From NCBI GenBank assembly GCA_030835325.1, contig JAURPF010000160.1, positions 1-45,023 of the forward strand: 45,023 nucleotides of DNA, written 5' to 3'. The position numbers and the translations under genes are program-made. This stretch comes from Flavobacteriaceae bacterium. Its GTDB lineage: Bacteria; Bacteroidota; Bacteroidia; Flavobacteriales; Flavobacteriaceae. A model generated the notes under the pieces. That model did no database searches and had not been told where the DNA came from. It saw only the letters and a list, made by a program, of their open reading frames with translations. This document shows positions 29,254 through 38,321 of the stretch, piece after piece (position 1 is the first letter of the stretch; the number at the start of each line of letters is the position of its first letter).

Positions 29254-32200
29254 TTAAACTGTTTCTAGTTGTTCTTTTTCTAATCTTAGTAACGCCTGTC
29301 TGTATTCTTCTGGCAGTACTTTTTTGAATTTAGGAAGCATTGCTTCCCAGTCTTCTAAAATGCGTTTTGCTAATGGACTTGACGTCGACACAAAATGATT
29401 TTCGATTAATGTTCGTAATTGATTCACATCTTCCTCAAATTCGATTGGGTCGATATTTAAATCGGCACCATTACAATTCTTTGTAAATGTATTGTCGGAG
29501 TCTAAAACATAGGCGATTCCGCCACTCATTCCTGCTCCAAAATTTCTTCCAACACTTCCAAGAATTACCGCGACACCTCCAGTCATATACTCACAACCGT
29601 GGTCACCAATTCCTTCAACAACGGCTTTAGCACCTGAGTTCCGAACACAAAAACGTTCGCCAGCTTTTCCGTTGATATAAACTTCTCCAGCAGTTGCACC
29701 ATAGAGCGTTACATTGCCCGTGATGATATTGTCTTCTGGAACAATTGTACTTGTTTCAGGAACTTTGATGATGAGTTTTGCACCCGACAATCCTTTTCCT
29801 AGATAATCGTTGGTGTTTCCGTGAACGGTCATGGTCACACCTTTGGTTGTAAAGGCTCCAAAACTTTGTCCTGCAGAACCATTAAAGTCTATGTTTATGG
29901 TGTCTTGTGGCAAGCCGTCTGCACCATAAATTTTTGATATTTCATTACTTAAAATCGCCCCAACAGCTCTGTCAATATTTGTAATAGGAAGTTTCAAATG
30001 TGTGCGTTGTCTTCTGAAGATTCCTTGATGTACTTGATTGATTATTTTGAAATCTAAATGGACACCGAGGTTGTGATCTTGCTCTTCAGTGTTGTATAAC
30101 TTTACACCCTCTGCTACTTCAACTTTATGTAAAATAGGTGTTAAATCAATTCCTGAAGCTTTGTAGTGTTCAATGGCTTTATTGCGATTTAATTTTTGAA
30201 CCTGACCCACCATTTCATCAACAGTTTTAAAGCCTAATTGCGCCATGATTTCACGCAATTCTTGCGCTACGAAATACATATAATTCACAACGTGCTCTGG
30301 TTTTCCTTTGAATTTTTTGCGCAATTCTGGATTTTGAGTTGCGATTCCTACAGGACAGGTATTTAAATGGCAAACTCGCATCATAATACATCCCGAAGCG
30401 ACTAAAGGAGCGGTTGCAAAACCAAACTCTTCAGCACCTAATAGACATGCGATTGCGACGTCACGTCCGGTTTTTAACTGGCCATCACATTCCAAAACAA
30501 TTCGATTTCTCAAATTATTCATCACCAATGTTTGTTGTGCTTCGGCAATTCCTAACTCCCAAGGAAGTCCTGCGTGTTTTAGAGAGGTTAATGGTGAAGC
30601 TCCTGTACCGCCATCAAAACCAGATATCAATACAACGTCTGCTTTGGCTTTTGCTACTCCGGCTGCCACGGTTCCTACACCTATTTCTGACACCAATTTA
30701 ACATTCACTCGAGCGGCTCTATTAGCGGATTTTACGTCGTATATTAATTGTGATAAATCTTCAATAGAATAAATATCGTGGTGTGGTGGTGGTGAAATCA
30801 ATCCTACATAGGGAGTTGAGTTTCTTGTTTTTGCAATTTCGGGATTTACTTTTGGACCGGGTAATTGGCCACCCTCACCAGGTTTTGCACCTTGAGCAAT
30901 TTTTATTTGAATTTCGTTGGCACTGGTAAGGTAGTTTGAAGTCACTCCAAATCGTCCAGAGGCAACTTGCTTGATTGCTGAGTTTCTCCAATCCCCTTGT
31001 GCATTTTTATAGAAACGATCTTCATCTTCTCCTCCTTCACCAGAATTACTTTTTCCGCCAATTCTATTCATGGCAACCGCTAAGTTTTCATGGGCTTCTT
31101 TACTAATAGATCCATAAGACATGGCGCCTGTTTTAAATCGTTTTACGATTTCAGTCCAAGGTTCCACCTCATCAATTGATATGGGATCAAATTGATCAAA
31201 TTCAAACAAACCTCTGATAGTCATAAGTCGCTTGGATTGGTCGTCAACTAGCTCTGAATATTCTTTAAAAGTAGAGGCTTTATTCGTACGAACTGATTCT
31301 TGAAGTTTTGCAACGGTTAGTGGGTTAAACATATGTTTTTCCTGTCCACGTCGCCATCTGTATTCGCCTCCAATTTCAATATCTGATTCAATATTCGGAT
31401 TGAATGCATTTTTATGACGCTTTACAATTTCTTTTTCAATTTCTATCAACCCAATTCCTTGAATTCGAGTTGGTGTGTTTGGAAAATATTTTTCAACAGT
31501 GTTTGTGTTGATTCCTACACACTCAAATAATTGAGAGCCTCTGTATGAGTTGAGGGTAGAAATCCCGATTTTGTTCATCACTTTCAAGATGCCCTTTCCA
31601 ATAGCTTTGTTGTAGTTCTTGATTGCAGTGAGGTATTCTAAATCCGAAATTTCAGAGTCTTTAATTTGTTTTTCAACAATTTCATTGACAATGTAGGGGT
31701 TCACTGCGCTTGCTCCAAAACCAAATAAAAGCGCAAAATGATGAACTTCTCTTGGTTCTGCAGATTCAATGACCAAACTAATTCTTGAGCGTTTATTGAG
31801 TTTGTGCAGCGCATGGTTCACATAGGAACAGGCTAATAGAGCTGGAATTGGCGCATGGTTTTCATCTACAAATCGATCGGATAAAATAATAATATTCGCA
31901 CCTTCGTCGATTGCTTTGGACGCTTTGTTTACCAAGGTTTCGAGTGCACTTTCTAATTCGTTTAAGCCACGATTTACTTCATACAGCATCGAAATAGATT
32001 CTACTTTGAAGTTCGGGTTTGTGTCATAATTTCTAATTTTATCTAAATCATGCTTTGAAATTACAGGGTTTTGAATTTTTAGTTTTTTACATGCCTCAGA
32101 ATTGATATCAAAAATATTGGTATCGCTTCCAAGGGTTAAACTAATGTCTGTAATTAATTCTTCACGAATCCCATCTAATGGAGGGTTGGTTACTTGCGCA

Positions 32201-33750
32201 AAGATTTGTTTGAAATAATTATAAATCAGTTGCGGGCGTTCGGACAAAACAGCAATTGGTGTATCGCTACCCATAGAGCCTATCGGTTCTTTGCCTAACT
32301 GTGCCATTGGGCGGATAATGGTATTTAGATCCTCTTTGGTATATCCAAAAGCAACTTCTCGTTTCTTTAAATCCACCTCGTCATATTTAATAGGACCTTT
32401 TTTGGCAGAGATGTCTTTTAGATGTACCAAGTTTTCGTTCAGCCATTTTCTGTACGGTTGTTTCGCTGCGATTTTTTCTTTGATTTCTTCATCGTTTACA
32501 ATACGCCCTTCATTCATATCTACAAGAAACATTTTTCCTGGCTCCAAGCGTCCATGGAATTCAACTTCTTCTGGCTCAATATCGACCACTCCTGTTTCAG
32601 AGGACATGATGACATTCCCGTTTTTAGTTACTGTATATCGAGACGGTCTGAGTCCATTTCGGTCTAATACAGCACCTATGAAATTTCCATCGGTAAATGG
32701 GATCGATGCAGGACCATCCCATGGTTCCATTAGACAAGAATTATATTCGTAGAATGCTTTTTTAGAATCGGACATGTCTGGGTTTTTTTCCCAAGCTTCG
32801 GGAACTAACATCATCATGACTTCAGGAAGTGATCGCCCTGTCATTAATAACAATTCGACCACCATGTCTAAGGTTGCTGAATCCGATTTTCCTTTTAGAA
32901 TTGTGGGGATTATTTTTTTGATATCCTCTCCAAAAGCATCACTTTTTATGATTTCTTCTCTAGAAAACATCCGTGACACATTTCCTCTTAGGGTATTGAT
33001 TTCTCCATTGTGACATATATATCGAAAGGGCTGTGCCAAATCCCAGGTCGGAAAGGTGTTGGTTGAAAAACGCTGGTGAACAAGTGCCAATCGGGTGTCT
33101 AAGGCAGAGTTAAAAAGATCCAGATAATATTCATTGATGTGTTCTGGCTTTAGTAACCCTTTAAAAATGATAATTTTTGTTGAGAGACTTGGAAGATAAA
33201 AGAATTTTGACTCTGATAACTTTGAGTCATATATTGTATGTTCTGATATTTTACGTGCTGCAAACAATTTCAAGTTAAAATCAAACTCCGATTGTTTTGG
33301 CTCTGATTTTCCGACAAAAACCTGCATTACAAAAGGCTCTGTTTTTTTGGCTATTTCACCCAAAACAACACTATTGACAGGAACTTTTCTCCAGCCTAAA
33401 ATATGCAGTCCTTGCTTTTTAATTTCGGTTTCGAAAACTTCTATACAATAGGCTCTTTGGTTTTCTTTTCTTGGTAAAAAAACATTACTAACCGCATAGG
33501 CTCCAGCTTCAGGCAATTCAAACTCACAATATGTTTTAAAAAATTCATGAGGAATATCAATAAGAATTCCTGCGCCATCCCCAGTAACACCATCGGAGCT
33601 AACCGCACCTCTGTGTTCTAGTTTTACTAAAATTTCTAATGCTTTATGAATGATGTCATTGGATCGTTTGCCTGTCAAGCTGCATATAAATCCTGCCCCA
33701 CAATTGTCGTGTTCAAACTCGGGTAAATAAAGTCCTTGCTTTTCTAACAT
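29254..33750 (-). CDS. gltB: Glutamate synthase large subunit
   Basis: This enzyme of about 1498 residues makes two glutamates from glutamine and 2-oxoglutarate. I start at ATG 33750 (MLEKQGLYLPEFEHDNCG), so that the Ntn nucleophile Cys17 is exposed by propeptide removal, rather than at an upstream GTG (33786). Domains: class II glutaminase (17 to about 430), central domain, FMN-binding synthase barrel with the Fe3S4 cysteines CIMMRVCHLNTCPVG, and a C-terminal GXGXG helix (GNVTLYGATAGEVYINGKAG). It is the first gene of gltBD and is divergent from the ammonium-uptake genes, forming a nitrogen-assimilation block. Confidence 0.96.
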   Translation of the reverse strand: MLEKQGLYLPEFEHDNCGAGFICSLTGKRSNDIIHKALEILVKLEHRGAVSSDGVTGDGAGILIDIPHEFFKTYCEFELPEAGAYAVSNVFLPRKENQRAYCIEVFETEIKKQGLHILGWRKVPVNSVVLGEIAKKTEPFVMQVFVGKSEPKQSEFDFNLKLFAARKISEHTIYDSKLSESKFFYLPSLSTKIIIFKGLLKPEHINEYYLDLFNSALDTRLALVHQRFSTNTFPTWDLAQPFRYICHNGEINTLRGNVSRMFSREEIIKSDAFGEDIKKIIPTILKGKSDSATLDMVVELLLMTGRSLPEVMMMLVPEAWEKNPDMSDSKKAFYEYNSCLMEPWDGPASIPFTDGNFIGAVLDRNGLRPSRYTVTKNGNVIMSSETGVVDIEPEEVEFHGRLEPGKMFLVDMNEGRIVNDEEIKEKIAAKQPYRKWLNENLVHLKDISAKKGPIKYDEVDLKKREVAFGYTKEDLNTIIRPMAQLGKEPIGSMGSDTPIAVLSERPQLIYNYFKQIFAQVTNPPLDGIREELITDISLTLGSDTNIFDINSEACKKLKIQNPVISKHDLDKIRNYDTNPNFKVESISMLYEVNRGLNELESALETLVNKASKAIDEGANIIILSDRFVDENHAPIPALLACSYVNHALHKLNKRSRISLVIESAEPREVHHFALLFGFGASAVNPYIVNEIVEKQIKDSEISDLEYLTAIKNYNKAIGKGILKVMNKIGISTLNSYRGSQLFECVGINTNTVEKYFPNTPTRIQGIGLIEIEKEIVKRHKNAFNPNIESDIEIGGEYRWRRGQEKHMFNPLTVAKLQESVRTNKASTFKEYSELVDDQSKRLMTIRGLFEFDQFDPISIDEVEPWTEIVKRFKTGAMSYGSISKEAHENLAVAMNRIGGKSNSGEGGEDEDRFYKNAQGDWRNSAIKQVASGRFGVTSNYLTSANEIQIKIAQGAKPGEGGQLPGPKVNPEIAKTRNSTPYVGLISPPPHHDIYSIEDLSQLIYDVKSANRAARVNVKLVSEIGVGTVAAGVAKAKADVVLISGFDGGTGASPLTSLKHAGLPWELGIAEAQQTLVMNNLRNRIVLECDGQLKTGRDVAIACLLGAEEFGFATAPLVASGCIMMRVCHLNTCPVGIATQNPELRKKFKGKPEHVVNYMYFVAQELREIMAQLGFKTVDEMVGQVQKLNRNKAIEHYKASGIDLTPILHKVEVAEGVKLYNTEEQDHNLGVHLDFKIINQVHQGIFRRQRTHLKLPITNIDRAVGAILSNEISKIYGADGLPQDTINIDFNGSAGQSFGAFTTKGVTMTVHGNTNDYLGKGLSGAKLIIKVPETSTIVPEDNIITGNVTLYGATAGEVYINGKAGERFCVRNSGAKAVVEGIGDHGCEYMTGGVAVILGSVGRNFGAGMSGGIAYVLDSDNTFTKNCNGADLNIDPIEFEEDVNQLRTLIENHFVSTSSPLAKRILEDWEAMLPKFKKVLPEEYRQALLRLEKEQLETV

Positions 33751-33766
33751 ACTTAAAATTATTTCT

Positions 33767-33807
33767 GGTTTAACCTTAATAAGCACGAAAGATAATTGGT
33801 TAAAACC
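33767..33807 (-). promoter_or_regulatory. Two GGTT-N(1-2)-AACC palindromes upstream of gltB
   Basis: GGTTTAACC (33767-33775) and GGTTAAAACC (33798-33807) lie 31 bp apart, close to three helical turns, and flank a weak -7-like box (TATCTTTC, minus strand, 33787-33794). This geometry fits an operator, but the sequence alone does not prove it. Confidence 0.3.
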
Positions 33808-33876: not shown

Positions 33877-34017
33877 ATGAAAGCCTTGTTAGACTATCGA
33901 ATATTCAACGGACAAATTGGTGATTTTTCATTCCAGCAGAAAAAAGCAAATAATGCTCAAAAAGTGATTACAAAAAAACCGCGCACTACTGAAATAACAA
34001 AAATAATACAAAAATAA
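33877..34017 (+). CDS. Candidate small protein of 46 residues between gltB and the porin
   Basis: ATG at 33877 opens a 46-codon frame: MKALLDYRIFNGQIGDFSFQ, then a basic tail with KVITKKPRTTEIT and IIQK, ending TAA 34015-34017. It is soluble and basic (about ten Lys/Arg), with no signal peptide or membrane helix. It lies in the divergent control region of gltB and the porin-amt operon, 9 bp before the first CCCC/GGGGG site. I do not recognise it. It could be a real regulatory small protein of nitrogen metabolism or a chance frame; no clear promoter or homologue is visible. Confidence 0.3.
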   Translation: MKALLDYRIFNGQIGDFSFQQKKANNAQKVITKKPRTTEITKIIQK

Positions 34018-34025
34018 TTACATTA

Positions 34026-34043
34026 CCCCAAAAATTTAGGGGG
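34026..34043 (+). promoter_or_regulatory. Distal ACCC/GGGT inverted site of the porin-amt operon
   Basis: ACCCC-AAAAATTTAG-GGGGT, a near-palindrome centred at about 34034.5, 85 bp upstream of the end of the -7 box. Its right half TTTAGGGG + TATATTG recurs in the proximal site. Confidence 0.5.
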
Positions 34044-34077
34044 TTATATTGATTATTATATAAAAATACATCAACTA

Positions 34078-34120
34078 CCCTACTTTTTTTAGGGGTATAT
34101 TGTATTAATGATTAGTTTTG
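34078..34120 (+). promoter_or_regulatory. Proximal ACCC/GGGT site and -7 box of the porin-amt operon
   Basis: ACCCTACTTTTTTTAGGGGT (site core 34078-34095) is followed after 17 bp by TAGTTTTG (34113-34120), a TAnnTTTG match. No TTTG -33 box is present; the site occupies that region instead. The layout is that of an activator-dependent promoter and matches the P-II-amt promoter. Confidence 0.55.
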
Positions 34121-34160
34121 AGCCGTTAACTAAAAATATTAACTACAAAAATTAACTATT

Positions 34161-35156
34161 ATGAAAAAAATTATTTTAAGTGCAATTGTTTTTGTTGGAG
34201 CCATGACTCTAAACGCACAAGATGAAGCTCCCAAATTATCGATCTCAGGAACGGTAGATGCCTATTACCAAACTTATTTATCAGCGCCTGATGATGTGTC
34301 AGGTTCTTTTGGGACTTCGTTTGCAGACGAGGCTGGATTTGCTTTAGGGATGGCTAATCTTATTCTTAGCTATGACGGCGAAAAAACCGGTGTAGTTGCG
34401 GATCTAGTATATGGCCCAAGAGGCGATTCTGCAGCAGGCGGTTATAACCTAAATCAGTTATACGCTTACTGGAATGTTTCTGAGTCAACTACATTGACTG
34501 CGGGACGTTTTAACACCTACTTAGGGTATGAAGTAATTTCTCCTACCGGAAACTTCAACTACAGTACTTCTTACTTATTCTCAAACGGTCCTTTTTCTCA
34601 TGTTGGATTAAAAGCGGATTTTGCTTTGAGTGAAGACTTTAGCTTGATGTTAGCATTCATGAATCCTACTGACACTAACAACAACACCACTGGAGATTAT
34701 GGATTTGGTGCTCAGTTAGGGTATGCAGGACAGTATTTAAACCTCTACTATGATAATGATTCTGTATTAGGTTTTGAAATTGACTATACAGGTGGGTTTG
34801 ATTTATCTGAGTCTTTTTTCTTGGGAATCAATGGTGCATACCAAGTTAAAGACGATGCTGGTTTTTACGGAGCAGCGCTTTACCCACAATTAACAACATC
34901 TGAATCTTTTTCTATAGGATTAAGAGGTGAGCTTTTTGGATATCACGAAAAAGATGGCGAGGATTTGCCAAGTGTTTTTGCTACAACCTTAACAGGAAGC
35001 TACACTGTTGAAAACTTAACTATTAAGCCAGAAGTAAGATTAGATGCCTGGACAAACGGTGAAAACCTAGAGAATGGCTTACCATATGTTGACGCTGACG
35101 GTGTTGCCTCTGAGAGCTTAGCAGCATTTACTATTGCCGCTATTTACTCTTTCTAG
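34161..35156 (+). CDS. OmpL-like beta-barrel porin (porin-2 family) linked to ammonium uptake
   Basis: This 331-residue outer-membrane protein has a signal peptide at 1-20 (MKKIILSAIVFVGAMTLNAQ). The rest is beta-barrel with alternating hydrophobic strands. ISGTVDAYYQTYLS, LILSYDGEKTGVVADLVYGP and LNQLYAYWNVSESTTLTAGRF match the porin-2 (OmpL-like) family, and the chain ends with an aromatic residue (IAAIYSF) as outer-membrane barrels do. It stands 32 bp before an amt gene, so they are probably one operon. A role in letting ammonium or another small nitrogen compound through the outer membrane is inference from context. Confidence 0.85.
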   Translation: MKKIILSAIVFVGAMTLNAQDEAPKLSISGTVDAYYQTYLSAPDDVSGSFGTSFADEAGFALGMANLILSYDGEKTGVVADLVYGPRGDSAAGGYNLNQLYAYWNVSESTTLTAGRFNTYLGYEVISPTGNFNYSTSYLFSNGPFSHVGLKADFALSEDFSLMLAFMNPTDTNNNTTGDYGFGAQLGYAGQYLNLYYDNDSVLGFEIDYTGGFDLSESFFLGINGAYQVKDDAGFYGAALYPQLTTSESFSIGLRGELFGYHEKDGEDLPSVFATTLTGSYTVENLTIKPEVRLDAWTNGENLENGLPYVDADGVASESLAAFTIAAIYSF

Positions 35157-35188
35157 AACCAATATTAACCAATCAAAATATATAATTT

Positions 35189-36478
35189 ATGTCACACTTA
35201 ATTAACAACTTGCCTTTAGTAATTCAGGATGCCGCTGCGGTTGAAAGTCTTGCTGGTGCGATCAAGGACGACATGGGAATGTTGTGGATGCTATTATCTG
35301 GTATCTTAGTGTTCTTTATGCAAGCAGGTTTTACTTTAGTAGAATCAGGAATGACACGTTCAAAAAATGCAGTAAATATCGCAATGAAAAACTTGCTTGA
35401 TATTGCTGTAGGATCTCTTACCTACTGGTTTGTAGGATACTCTTTAATGTATGGCGACACTTCTAACGGATGGTTTTTCTGGAGTGGAATCATGCAAGGC
35501 GAAGGTGCCGATTTATTCTTCCAAACAATGTTTGCTGCAACTGCTGCGACTATTGTTTCTGGAGCAATTGCTGGAAGAACAAAGTACTCAACGTATGTTA
35601 TCTTTTCAATCGTTATGACTGCCATCATCTACCCAATTGCAGGGGGATGGCAATGGCAAGGATCAGGATGGTTGACGGAGCTAGGCTTTATTGACTTTGC
35701 TGGATCTTCAATCGTTCATGCTGTCGGTGGTTTTGCTGCTTTGGTAGCGGCTTACTTAGTAGGTCCTAGAATTGGAAAATTTGTAGACGGAAAAGTAATG
35801 CCTATTCCGGGTCACAACCAAATATTAGCAACCTTAGGGGTATTCATACTATGGTTAGGATGGTTTGGTTTTAACGGTGGATCTCAACTGGCTTGGGGTG
35901 GAGATGATTCGGTTGCTGCTTCAACAGTAGTACTGATCACGAATCTTGCTGCTGCTGCTGGTGCATTAGGTGCGCTTATCACGACTTGGATCTGGTACGG
36001 AAAACCAAACTTAGCACAATCACTTAACGGTGCTTTGGCTGGGTTGGTAAGTATTACTGCAGGTTGTGGAAACATGACGGCTGGTGGTGCTGTATTAGCG
36101 GGACTTATTGGTGGTGTCATTGTTGTGTTCTCTATCGAAATCATCGAAAAGAAACTCAAAATTGATGATGCTATTGGAGCTGCATCTGTTCACGGAGTTG
36201 TTGGATTTTGGGGTACGATTGTGATCGGGCTTTGGGGTGTAGACGGCGACGATGGACTTGGATTATTCAATGGAGGTGGAGCTGATCAACTTATAGCACA
36301 ACTTACAGGGGGCGTTGCCTATGCTGTTTGGGCTGTTGTTCTTTCGTTTATTGTATTCGGAATCCTCAAGAAAACTGTTGGATTAAGAGTGACAGAAGAA
36401 GAAGAAGTTGCTGGACTTGATATCTCTGAACATGGATCTATTGCTTATCCAGGTAAAAGAGAAAGAGGTCAAGAGTAA
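35189..36478 (+). CDS. amt: Ammonium transporter (Amt family), first copy
   Basis: A 429-residue inner-membrane protein with about 11 helices. The Amt hallmarks are FAATAATIVSGAIAGR, the conserved Asp169 in DFAGSSIVHAVGG, and the twin pore histidines His177 and His335 (AASVHGVVGFWGT). The N-terminal segment (1-30) is longer than in AmtB and hydrophilic, but no clear cleavable signal is seen. The cytosolic tail ends EHGSIAYPGKRERGQE. Encoded after the porin gene and before a terminator, it should import ammonium, probably regulated by the P-II protein encoded next. Confidence 0.95.
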   Translation: MSHLINNLPLVIQDAAAVESLAGAIKDDMGMLWMLLSGILVFFMQAGFTLVESGMTRSKNAVNIAMKNLLDIAVGSLTYWFVGYSLMYGDTSNGWFFWSGIMQGEGADLFFQTMFAATAATIVSGAIAGRTKYSTYVIFSIVMTAIIYPIAGGWQWQGSGWLTELGFIDFAGSSIVHAVGGFAALVAAYLVGPRIGKFVDGKVMPIPGHNQILATLGVFILWLGWFGFNGGSQLAWGGDDSVAASTVVLITNLAAAAGALGALITTWIWYGKPNLAQSLNGALAGLVSITAGCGNMTAGGAVLAGLIGGVIVVFSIEIIEKKLKIDDAIGAASVHGVVGFWGTIVIGLWGVDGDDGLGLFNGGGADQLIAQLTGGVAYAVWAVVLSFIVFGILKKTVGLRVTEEEEVAGLDISEHGSIAYPGKRERGQE

Positions 36479-36549
36479 TTTCAACACAATACTGAGCATT
36501 CAATGCTCTCAAAAAATTAAAAATTAGTTTGTGATTTTTAGTTTGTGTT

Positions 36550-36590
36550 AAAAACCCTAGGAGCCATGTGCTTCTAGGGTTTTTATTTTT
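36550..36590 (+). terminator. Terminator after the first amt gene
   Basis: AAAACCCTAG and CTAGGGTTTT form a perfect 10-bp stem, extended by further pairs around an apical loop, and followed by a T-rich run. It separates the porin-amt unit from the P-II-amt promoter. Confidence 0.85.
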
Positions 36591-36617
36591 AGCTTTTTTA
36601 TGTTATTTGCTTGTTAT

Positions 36618-36637
36618 ACCTTTATTATTTATAGGGT
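36618..36637 (+). promoter_or_regulatory. Distal, degenerate ACC/GGGT site of the P-II-amt operon
   Basis: ACCTTTATTATTTATAGGGT is the weakest of the four sites, centred at about 36627.5. It lies about 52 bp upstream of the proximal site and about 85 bp upstream of the end of the -7 box, the same as in the porin-amt promoter. Confidence 0.4.
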
Positions 36638-36668
36638 AATTTTATTAATATCGCAAAAACACATAACA

Positions 36669-36713
36669 CCCTCCTATAATTTAAGGGGGTATTTATTTTT
36701 TTATATACTTTTG
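36669..36713 (+). promoter_or_regulatory. Proximal ACCC/GGGT site and -7 box of the P-II-amt operon
   Basis: CCCTCCTATAATTTAAGGGGG (36669-36689) is followed after 16 bp by TACTTTTG (36706-36713), a TAnnTTTG match. The site covers the -33 region, where no TTTG box exists. It is centred 34 bp upstream of the end of the -7 box, as in the porin-amt promoter. Confidence 0.55.
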
Positions 36714-36735: not shown

Positions 36736-37074
36736 ATGAAAAAAGTAGAGGCAATCATTAGAAAATCTAAATTTTCTGCTGTCAAAAAAGCACTGCATGA
36801 TGTCGGTGTCAATTTCTTTTCCTATTGGGACGTCACAGGCCTAGGAAACGAAAAAGAAGGCCATGTTTACAGAGGTGTTTCTTATAGCACCAGTGACATA
36901 CAAAGACGTTACCTATCAATTGTCGTTAATGATGATTTTGAGGAAGTGACCATAAAAGCAATCCTAGAAGCCGCATCGTCTGGAGAGGTTGGTGATGGAA
37001 AAATCTTTGTATCACAGATCGATGAAGTATATAGAATTAGAACCGGCGAAAAAGGCGGAAACACACTAAAATAA
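36736..37074 (+). CDS. P-II family nitrogen regulatory protein with unusual T-loop
   Basis: This 112-residue trimeric signal protein, by family, binds ATP/ADP and 2-oxoglutarate and regulates Amt channels. The fold is clear: MKKVEAIIRKSKF at the start, GDGKIFVSQI (B-loop) and RIRTGEKG (C-loop). The T-loop is diverged: residues 35-40 read GLGNEK, with Glu39 where Gln39 contacts 2-oxoglutarate in E. coli, and HVYRGVSYSTSDIQRRY replaces HTELYRGAEYMVDFLPKVK. Tyr50 aligns with the uridylylation site. The gene lies 5 bp before the second amt, so a GlnK-like role is likely. Effector binding and modification may differ from GlnB/GlnK. Confidence 0.9.
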   Translation: MKKVEAIIRKSKFSAVKKALHDVGVNFFSYWDVTGLGNEKEGHVYRGVSYSTSDIQRRYLSIVVNDDFEEVTIKAILEAASSGEVGDGKIFVSQIDEVYRIRTGEKGGNTLK

Positions 37075-37079
37075 CAACA

Positions 37080-38321
37080 ATGGAATTACTTACAATCAAC
37101 AACGTATGGATGATGATCTGTACGGCACTCGTCTTTTTTATGCATACAGGGTTTGCATTTCTCGAAATCGGACTTACCCGTCAAAAAAACACGATTAATA
37201 TTTTATTTAAAAACATCTTTATTATCACGGTCGGACTTTTACTTTATTATATAGTCGGCTTTAACCTAATGTATCCAGGCGACTTTAATGGTGTCTTTGG
37301 ATTTGCTGGTTTTGGATTAGATGCTCCTTTAGCAGATGGCACATTTGATTTAGCATATAGCGAAGGCTATACTTATTGGACCGATTTCTTATTCCAAGGC
37401 ATGTTTGCAGCAACTGCTGCAACTATTGTTTCGGGTGCTGTTGCAGAGCGCATGAAAATTGGCGCTTTTATGATTTTCACGATCTTATATGTAGGTTTCG
37501 TGTATCCAATTGCAGGTTCTTGGCAATGGGGTGGTGGATTTTTATCTTCATTAACAATTGGAGAAACCGAAGGCTTTTATGACTTTGCAGGTTCTACACT
37601 TGTACACTCCGTTGGTGGGTGGGCTGCTTTAGTCGCTGTTTATCTTTTAGGTTCGCGAATAGGAAAATTTAGCAATGGAATGTCACAGGCAATTCCTGGA
37701 CATAGTATTCCATTGGCAACAGCGGGGGTTCTTATTCTATGGTTGGGTTGGTTTGGTTTTAATGGAGGCTCTGTACTTTCTGCAGATCCAGAAGCTACAT
37801 CCTTAACATTAGTAACGACTTGTTTGGCAGCTGCGGCAGGTGGCGTTATTGCGATGATTACCTCAACAATATTGTATAAAAACTTAGACTTAACAATGTT
37901 TCTAAATGGAATATTAGGAGGTCTTGTAGGGATTACGGCAGGAGCCGATCAAATGAGCCCAGGTGATGCAATCCTAATTGGAGCAATTGCCGGAGCCCTT
38001 ATTGTATTTACTGTGAGTTTAATCGATAAAATTAAGTTAGACGACCCAGTAGGCGCCATAGCTGTACACCTTATTTGCGGAATTTGGGGAACTCTAGCCG
38101 TAGGACTTTTTGGAGCCAAAGCAGGTTTTGATCAATTTGTAATTCAACTCATAGGGGTTTTGTGTTATGCAGTATTTTGTATAGCAACCTCTTTTGTTAT
38201 TATATACGCCTTAAAGAAAACTGTGGGCATCCGAGTTTCGGAACGAGAAGAGCTAGAAGGTCTAGATGCACACGAACATAAAATGGACGCTTACCCAGAT
38301 TTTAGATTAAATGAACATTAA
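37080..38321 (+). CDS. amt: Ammonium transporter (Amt family), second copy
   Basis: This 413-residue inner-membrane protein has about 11 helices, with FAATAATIVSGAVAER, Asp168 in DFAGSTLVHSVGG, and pore histidines His176 and His330 (AIAVHLICGIWGT). It is clearly related to the first Amt but has a shorter N-terminus and an extra loop of about 20 residues (70-98). Its stop is followed by a bidirectional terminator. Coupling to the P-II gene 5 bp upstream is the classic glnK-amtB arrangement. Two Amt paralogues served by one P-II may differ in affinity or in which one P-II gates. Confidence 0.95.
   Translation: MELLTINNVWMMICTALVFFMHTGFAFLEIGLTRQKNTINILFKNIFIITVGLLLYYIVGFNLMYPGDFNGVFGFAGFGLDAPLADGTFDLAYSEGYTYWTDFLFQGMFAATAATIVSGAVAERMKIGAFMIFTILYVGFVYPIAGSWQWGGGFLSSLTIGETEGFYDFAGSTLVHSVGGWAALVAVYLLGSRIGKFSNGMSQAIPGHSIPLATAGVLILWLGWFGFNGGSVLSADPEATSLTLVTTCLAAAAGGVIAMITSTILYKNLDLTMFLNGILGGLVGITAGADQMSPGDAILIGAIAGALIVFTVSLIDKIKLDDPVGAIAVHLICGIWGTLAVGLFGAKAGFDQFVIQLIGVLCYAVFCIATSFVIIYALKKTVGIRVSEREELEGLDAHEHKMDAYPDFRLNEH

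Follow-up and report, generated by a model that had tools for sequence, protein, structure and literature searches.

A paired dyad element at nitrogen assimilation promoters of Flavobacteriaceae and its predicted regulon

The 45,023-nucleotide contig JAURPF010000160.1 of a Flavobacteriaceae bacterium (assembly GCA_030835325.1, positions 1 to 45,023 of the forward strand; the whole stretch is referred to below as the window) carries paired ACCC/GGGT dyads in two promoter regions in front of nitrogen genes, and these paired dyads are the subject of the present analysis. The genes follow each other in the order ilv genes, gltD-gltB on the minus strand, the porin-amt and P-II-amt units on the plus strand and a PEP-carboxylase-like gene; the ilv, glt and PEP-carboxylase names come from a reading of the translations. 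The porin-amt unit is headed by an open reading frame (ORF) for an outer-membrane porin of the BBP2/OmpL-like family (34161-35156, plus strand; Pfam PF07642, E = 1.3e-52), which is followed by the ammonium transporter gene amt (35189-36478, plus strand; TIGR00836 over cut-off). The P-II-amt unit consists of a gene for a P-II signal protein of the GlnB/GlnK type (36736-37074, plus strand) and a second ammonium transporter gene (37080-38321, plus strand; TIGR00836 over cut-off). The P-II protein matches P-II models at E = 5e-22, below their cut-offs, and is 71-96% identical to the P-II proteins of the 80 named relative loci used below. The gltB ORF (29254-33786, minus strand), named as the glutamate synthase large subunit by reading its translation, is divergent from the porin gene and shares an intergenic region with it, an order that is seen again in many relatives. 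Of the two promoters, one was located in this gltB/porin gap and the other in the gap between the first amt gene and the P-II gene.

In the gltB/porin gap, a distal dyad ACCCC-N10-GGGGT (34025-34044; centre 34034.5, about -90.5) and a proximal dyad ACCCT-N10-GGGGT (34077-34096; centre 34086.5, about -38.5) precede the -7 box TAGTTTTG (34113-34120, plus strand), which relatives have at the same offset from their proximal centre. Between the dyads lies an A-tract, ATAAAAAT (34060-34067, plus strand), centred 23 bp before the proximal centre, at about -62. The numbering takes TAnnTTTG as -12 to -5, where the accessible part of a Flavobacterium psychrophilum study places this box (PMC9723704). Since the box is downstream of the dyads, both dyads lie upstream of the predicted transcript start. 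The P-II-amt promoter has a distal dyad ACCTT-N10-AGGGT (36618-36637; centre 36627.5), a proximal dyad that can be read either as ACCCT-N13-GGGGT (36668-36690; centre 36679) or as CTCCT-N10-GGGGT (36671-36690; centre 36680.5), and a -7 box TACTTTTG (36706-36713, plus strand), read from the sequence. The counterpart of the A-tract here is GCAAAAAC (36653-36660, plus strand), which lies 22.5-24 bp before the proximal centre and is aligned with the A-tract of the other promoters. Further upstream, between amt and this promoter, a CCCTAG...CTAGGG inverted repeat (window 36550-36589) followed by a T-rich stretch was noticed by eye; it looks like an intrinsic terminator parting porin-amt from P-II-amt.

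The dyad centres are exactly 52 bp apart in the porin-amt promoter and 51.5-53 bp apart in the P-II-amt promoter. The last base of TAnnTTTG follows the proximal centre by 33.5 bp and 32.5-34 bp, respectively, and the distal centre by 85.5 bp in both. The first-pass annotation, made from the letters alone, had described such paired sites at both promoters, about 52 bp from each other and about 34 and 85 bp from the end of the box; these distances are borne out, and its coordinates are right to 1-2 bp. It had also called the distal P-II site degenerate. This site does have one mismatch to ACCCY-N10-RGGGT, but it is the proximal P-II site that departs from N10. A possible -7 box for gltB, TATTTTTG (33998-34005, minus strand), was picked by eye and is tentative; the distance between it and the centre of the distal porin-amt dyad is 36.5 bp.

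The anatomy of the element was followed through the 80 named P-II loci of relatives. Fifty-four promoters were listed, chosen by their pair score and a centre distance between 49 and 55 bp, with second overlapping pairs in loci L074, L080 and L096 dropped by hand. Centre distances in these promoters range from 50.5 to 54.5 bp with a mode of 52.5. In both dyads, the half-sites have A, C, C, C at 87-100%, mostly followed by C or T, which gives the consensus ACCCY-N10-RGGGT with an A/T-rich interior. In 42 of the 54 promoters, the last base of a TAnnTTT(G/A) box lies 32-35 bp downstream of the proximal centre, and in 32 a motif expression for the A-tract is found centred 21.5-25 bp before this centre. 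An alignment of 45 of the sequences contains the two dyads, the ATAAAAAT block in between and TATAnTTTTG at the end. With unselected spacing, 39 of 42 strong-dyad pairs lying within 150 bp in the 80 loci are 52-54 bp apart. The proximal dyad spans about -48 to -29, and a TTTG -33 box, which the first-pass annotation had found missing from the two window promoters, is mostly missing: TTTG occurs 15-25 bp upstream of the box in 5 of the 42 box-bearing promoters. At eight loci (L046, L052, L065, L066, L068, L074, L081 and L083), P-II genes are present in two or three copies, in most cases with amt genes between them; the paired element precedes some of these copies and not others.

The pair was compared with shuffled sequences. 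For each window promoter, none of 5000 dinucleotide shuffles of the 250-bp upstream region matched the observed pair score. Over the window and the relatives, the pair is present in 55 of 111 porin, P-II or amt upstream regions (51 of 74 when counted per locus, window included), whereas the mean over 100 dinucleotide shuffles was 0.05 and none gave more than 1. The motif thus recurs upstream of orthologous amt and P-II genes, where its lack would have spoken against the first-pass annotation. Single sites behave differently. Allowing up to two mismatches, ACCCY-N10-RGGGT occurs 37 times in the whole window against 22.8 expected, a mild enrichment that none of 100 shuffles reaches. In the window's own genome, which is 76% complete, ACCYY-N10-RGGGT has 18 + 16 matches against 5 + 9 for the reversed control pattern, and the 12 loci read for single exact sites elsewhere are nearly all coding or beside tRNAs. 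The paired form alone is informative, and single sites are uninformative.

For searches of whole genomes we used R1, a sequence-only covariance model of the whole promoter trained on 45 of the 54 promoters, with nine near-duplicates or odd sequences left out. The window promoters, both of which belong to the 45 training sequences, match at 8.8e-19 and 7.3e-14, and the next non-overlapping match has an E value of 0.12. At E<=1e-9, R1 has matches in 78 of 148 family genomes. Away from P-II, all 35 places among the matches listed are nitrogen genes (E from 1.5e-16 to 2.8e-7): 23 are GS-III or GS-II (glutamine synthetase, GS), 5 amt, 4 ald, 2 porin-amt and 1 gltB. These 35 are the listed matches judged to be new and off the P-II locus, and the GS, ald and amt names are Pfam-supported for one example each. 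Equally frequent occurrence at unrelated positions in the genome would also have contradicted the first-pass annotation; away from the P-II locus, R1 instead led to nitrogen genes.

A pattern of the pair without box or A-tract has matches in 46 of the 148 family genomes. Its eight A/T-rich places off P-II lie at GS-III (genomes G068 and G059), GS-II (G028), ald (G069, G119 and G014) and porin (G046 and G009). At four of the six GS and ald places, a TAnnTTT(G/A) that points the same way as the gene is found at 32.5-33.5 bp, which is an independent check of the geometry. R1 matches the gltB-porin element in reverse too, at 35.6 bits, and several elements that match in reverse sit in gaps from which genes diverge (gltB/porin, GS-III/GS-II), so that a single element may act in both directions. 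A search for the element in phage records gave no match.

Among 247 Bacteroidota genomes searched with R1 at E<=1e-5, 23 of 27 genomes of the family had matches, the window's own among them, against none of 220 outside the family; for the 204 match-free genomes, outside-family status was taken from the order of the table. In the sampled genomes, the element is therefore restricted to Flavobacteriaceae. Among the named loci that have the pair, one, L096, carries the label Cryomorphaceae.

What was observed is the element with its geometry and conservation, and its position at nitrogen genes. Judged from the DNA, it is a real, conserved and lineage-specific element of predicted nitrogen control, with a defined architecture and a defined putative regulon. 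We consider that the two window promoters are probably copies of one conserved architecture through which a nitrogen-responsive dimeric activator would control nitrogen assimilation in Flavobacteriaceae, and put the probability of this at about three in four. With somewhat less assurance, but still as the better bet, we propose that this activator is global and specific to the lineage, unrelated to NtrC, NtcA, GlnR/TnrA and AmtR, and that it acts through paired dyads at -38.5/-91 of sigma-A promoters devoid of a -33 box, with a regulon of porin-amt, P-II-amt, other amt genes, GS-III, GS-II, ald and gltB.

One can picture its action as follows. A dimeric protein responsive to nitrogen state would bind the 20-bp dyad ACCCY-N10-RGGGT centred near -38.5, and a second dyad, 52-53 bp upstream, would be bound on the same face of the helix. 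The bound protein would replace the missing -33 contact and recruit polymerase with the housekeeping sigma-A to the TAnnTTTG box. We infer protein binding, the dimeric state and activation from the arrangement of the sites: the dyads are about five turns apart, the near one lies over -33 and TTTG is mostly missing there, which together suggest a dimeric activator touching polymerase from one face. The first-pass annotation had proposed an activator binding as two dimers on one face. The spacing, the near dyad over the -33 region, the mostly missing TTTG and, at porin, P-II and amt promoters, the A-tract all fit this proposal, in which binding and activation are putative. The A-tract at about -62 probably helps at porin, P-II and amt promoters; it is a candidate contact of the C-terminal domain of the polymerase alpha subunit (alpha-CTD), because in E. 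coli class II promoters this domain binds near -62. Since the targets comprise ammonium entry, P-II, both glutamine synthetases, glutamate synthase and ald, the signal is presumably the nitrogen state, and activation would most likely occur when nitrogen is short.

Several results weigh against this reading. Near-complete genomes G002, G020 and G064 have P-II and weak or no R1 matches; a same-family P-II with a weak or no promoter match was also noted in G004, and it is possible that in these four genomes the regulon was lost or the site changed. By the strict rule, the pair is absent from 23 of 74 loci. Nine of these match R1 at E<=1.2e-4, none of them from the training set, and the other 14 have no match at that level; when R1 was given 29 loci (the 23 and 6 further ones), 10 matched at this threshold. 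With a threshold as loose as E<=0.05, 147 of 148 genomes have an R1 match, so weak matches are meaningless and only strong ones count. The relaxed pair pattern without box or A-tract exceeds its reversed control only about twofold (63 vs 34 matches) and is a weak filter alone; 16 of its places away from P-II are coding-like, and six of eight that were checked lie inside ORFs of >100 aa. At the ald promoters of L163 and L168, the box is missing from its usual position, and at none of the six GS and ald places did the motif expression detect an A-tract in the direction of the gene's box. In Prevotella ruminicola, which belongs to another family, amtB and glnK transcripts have been reported to be more abundant when ammonium is not limiting (PMC5552732), and the direction of control is therefore uncertain. 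Finally, no discriminating candidate regulator was found in all element-bearing genomes.

Candidate regulators were sought with GerE, HTH_Crp_2 and HTH_AsnC models in 24 genomes, with a cNMP model in 26 and with ortholog profiles of three regulators in 148, and none tracks the element; here, absence of a candidate means no match above a score gap in a search that scored the best first-look candidates only. When 335 neighbour ORFs of the 80 P-II loci were clustered, no recurrent regulator appeared among the clusters listed (at least three loci). No pair was found at 76 candidate-regulator loci (L236-L311), which thus give no sign of autoregulation. A LuxR/sensor protein of about 940 aa, looked at in 10 genomes, was set aside, being also present in genomes with weak or no elements. 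A BlaI/MecI repressor encoded beside GS is disfavoured as the universal regulator, having no match at E<=1e-15 in G000, G123, G043 and G046; the window's own genus is without BlaI. In 16 of 26 GS loci, BlaI adjoins a Na/Ca-exchanger gene next to GS. This neighbourhood of GS-III and/or GS-II, Na/Ca exchanger and BlaI was seen at L166, L169, L209, L211-L214, L216, L220, L224, L225, L228-L230, L232 and L233, with an M56 peptidase at L166, L230 and L233; we know of no reason for a link between BlaI and glutamine synthetase.

Two alternatives do without an activator. The dyads could be operators of a repressor that closes nitrogen genes at plentiful nitrogen, following a logic like that of AmtR, and a protein on the proximal dyad, at about -48 to -29, would indeed also block polymerase. 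Against a repressor speak the 37 of 42 box-bearing promoters without TTTG 15-25 bp upstream, which look activator-dependent (a count that covers element-bearing promoters only), and a distal dyad kept 50.5-54.5 bp away is better explained by helical-phase activation; we regard repression as unlikely, while giving it more weight than any other alternative discussed here. Nor do we give much credit to similarity by common descent of amt and P-II upstream regions, or by chance in A/T-rich DNA, in place of a common regulator. The dyad interiors are A/T-rich, many loci are related and weak R1 matches are as common as stated above, but the same arrangement stands at the unrelated genes GS-III, GS-II, ald and gltB, and both the shuffles and the 220 genomes outside the family were negative, which makes this explanation very improbable.

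The remaining alternatives concern the kind of protein involved. An Lrp/AsnC protein, either a paralog encoded near ald (Lrp-A) or a near-universal one (Lrp-B), is almost as plausible as a repressor, that is, doubtful. Lrp proteins often use several phased dyads; in G069 only two genes lie from the Lrp-A gene to ald, in G014, G026, G097 and G108 its distance to the ald element is 2-3.5 kb, and Lrp-B was read in all 15 genomes for which universal paralogs were fetched, 146 of 148 genomes having at least one A3 match at E<=1e-25. Known Lrp sites, however, are dyads of 13-15 bp. Lrp-A is disfavoured as the universal regulator, since no ortholog was found above the score gap (222.5 vs 178.5 bits) in G118 and G134, two genomes of at least 99% completeness whose R1 matches have E<=4.2e-15, and the presence of Lrp-B, found also in genomes with weak or no elements, does not discriminate. 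An orphan NarL-type response regulator encoded between nadE and dnaG is less probable still. In the small element-bearing genomes G043, G046, G137 and G139, no other GerE protein is strong (E<1e-15), the 20-bp dyad resembles the lux box, and genomes G064, G004 and G065, which are without this regulator, have weak R1 matches. Yet G025, G047 and G138, all of at least 99% completeness and with R1 matches at E<=2.8e-12, have no ortholog of it above the gap (182.7 vs 167.7 bits), and it is present in G020 and G092 despite weak R1 matches only. By eye, many of its 12 aligned members (L236-L244, L247-L249) have Glu at the expected phospho-acceptor Asp, and homologues of gldB/gldC, named by reading of translations, adjoin its gene in most loci. 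Least credible among the proteins is an NtcA-like member of the CRP/FNR superfamily, an idea that comes from the tandem geometry at -38.5/-91: tandem CRP sites at about -41.5 and -93.5 are likewise 52 bp apart. The dyad described here is wider than CRP and NtcA sites, with conserved GGG 7-9 bp from the axis, and its consensus in the 54 promoters agrees with neither TGTGA-N6-TCACA nor GTA-N8-TAC. Moreover, G046 (99% complete), G052 (90%) and G139 (86%) have strong R1 matches (5.7e-13, 6.8e-10 and 1.1e-8 in G046) and no cNMP-domain match, which argues against a full-length CRP/FNR protein as the universal regulator. G046 does retain an 81-aa protein with a CRP-type helix-turn-helix alone and no sensor domain (L340, 1281-1526, minus strand); it looks like a remnant or a stand-alone DNA-binding protein.

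We know of no established global nitrogen regulator in Bacteroidota. By title or abstract, searches of the open-access literature, a coverage outside which most subscription journals fall, brought up no such regulator and no description of this element or of a nitrogen regulator in Flavobacteriaceae. The accessible part of the Prevotella ruminicola study makes no mention of a motif, promoter, transcription factor or binding site (PMC5552732), and the motif search in the accessible part of the F. psychrophilum study concerned sigma factors (PMC9723704). For the predicted activator, the element provides a conserved DNA bait with exact geometry and, together with the predicted regulon, a direct route to the regulator and to activation at TAnnTTTG promoters; it is also a marker by which genes under predicted nitrogen control can be picked out in uncultured genomes. 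Because Flavobacteriaceae abound in the sea as degraders of organic matter, their ammonium uptake matters for nitrogen cycling.

The first-pass annotation had stated that the pattern is neither that of NtcA nor that of sigma-54, and this is supported by the form of the site and by the TAnnTTTG box; a full-length CRP/FNR protein in general is further disfavoured by G046. The box at a fixed offset, the one feature considered in this respect, speaks for sigma-A. In the accessible part of the F. psychrophilum study, genes with sigma-54 promoters belong to protein quality control, envelope stress, gliding and exported proteins (PMC9723704). The proposed system shares its targets, amt, P-II and glutamine synthetase, with NtrC/sigma-54 of Proteobacteria, from which it appears to differ in having TAnnTTTG boxes in place of -24/-12 elements. 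As with actinobacterial GlnR, nitrogen genes would be globally controlled outside NtrC/sigma-54; GlnR, however, is an orphan atypical response regulator of the OmpR type with sites of another form. The LuxR lux box, ACCTGTA-N6-TACAGGT, is also a 20-bp dyad of similar outline, but the bases inside the half-site are different here and the dyads are paired 52-53 bp apart. In the cyanobacterial NtcA regulon, one activator likewise serves amt and glnB/glnN-type genes, and a dyad near -41.5 replaces the -35 box. NtcA, a member of the CRP/FNR superfamily, binds GTA-N8-TAC, in contrast to the paired ACCCY-N10-RGGGT dyads. In geometry, the paired dyads are best read as resembling tandem CRP-dependent (class III) promoters of E. 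coli, with sites near -41.5 and -93.5: in both there are two dyads about 52 bp apart, the near one over the -35/-33 region and abutting polymerase, with a possible alpha-CTD contact between them. The likeness is one of geometry only. Here, the near centre is at about -38.5, a 20-bp GGG/CCC dyad takes the place of TGTGA-N6-TCACA, the box is that of Bacteroidota sigma-A, and G046 has the element with no cNMP-domain protein.

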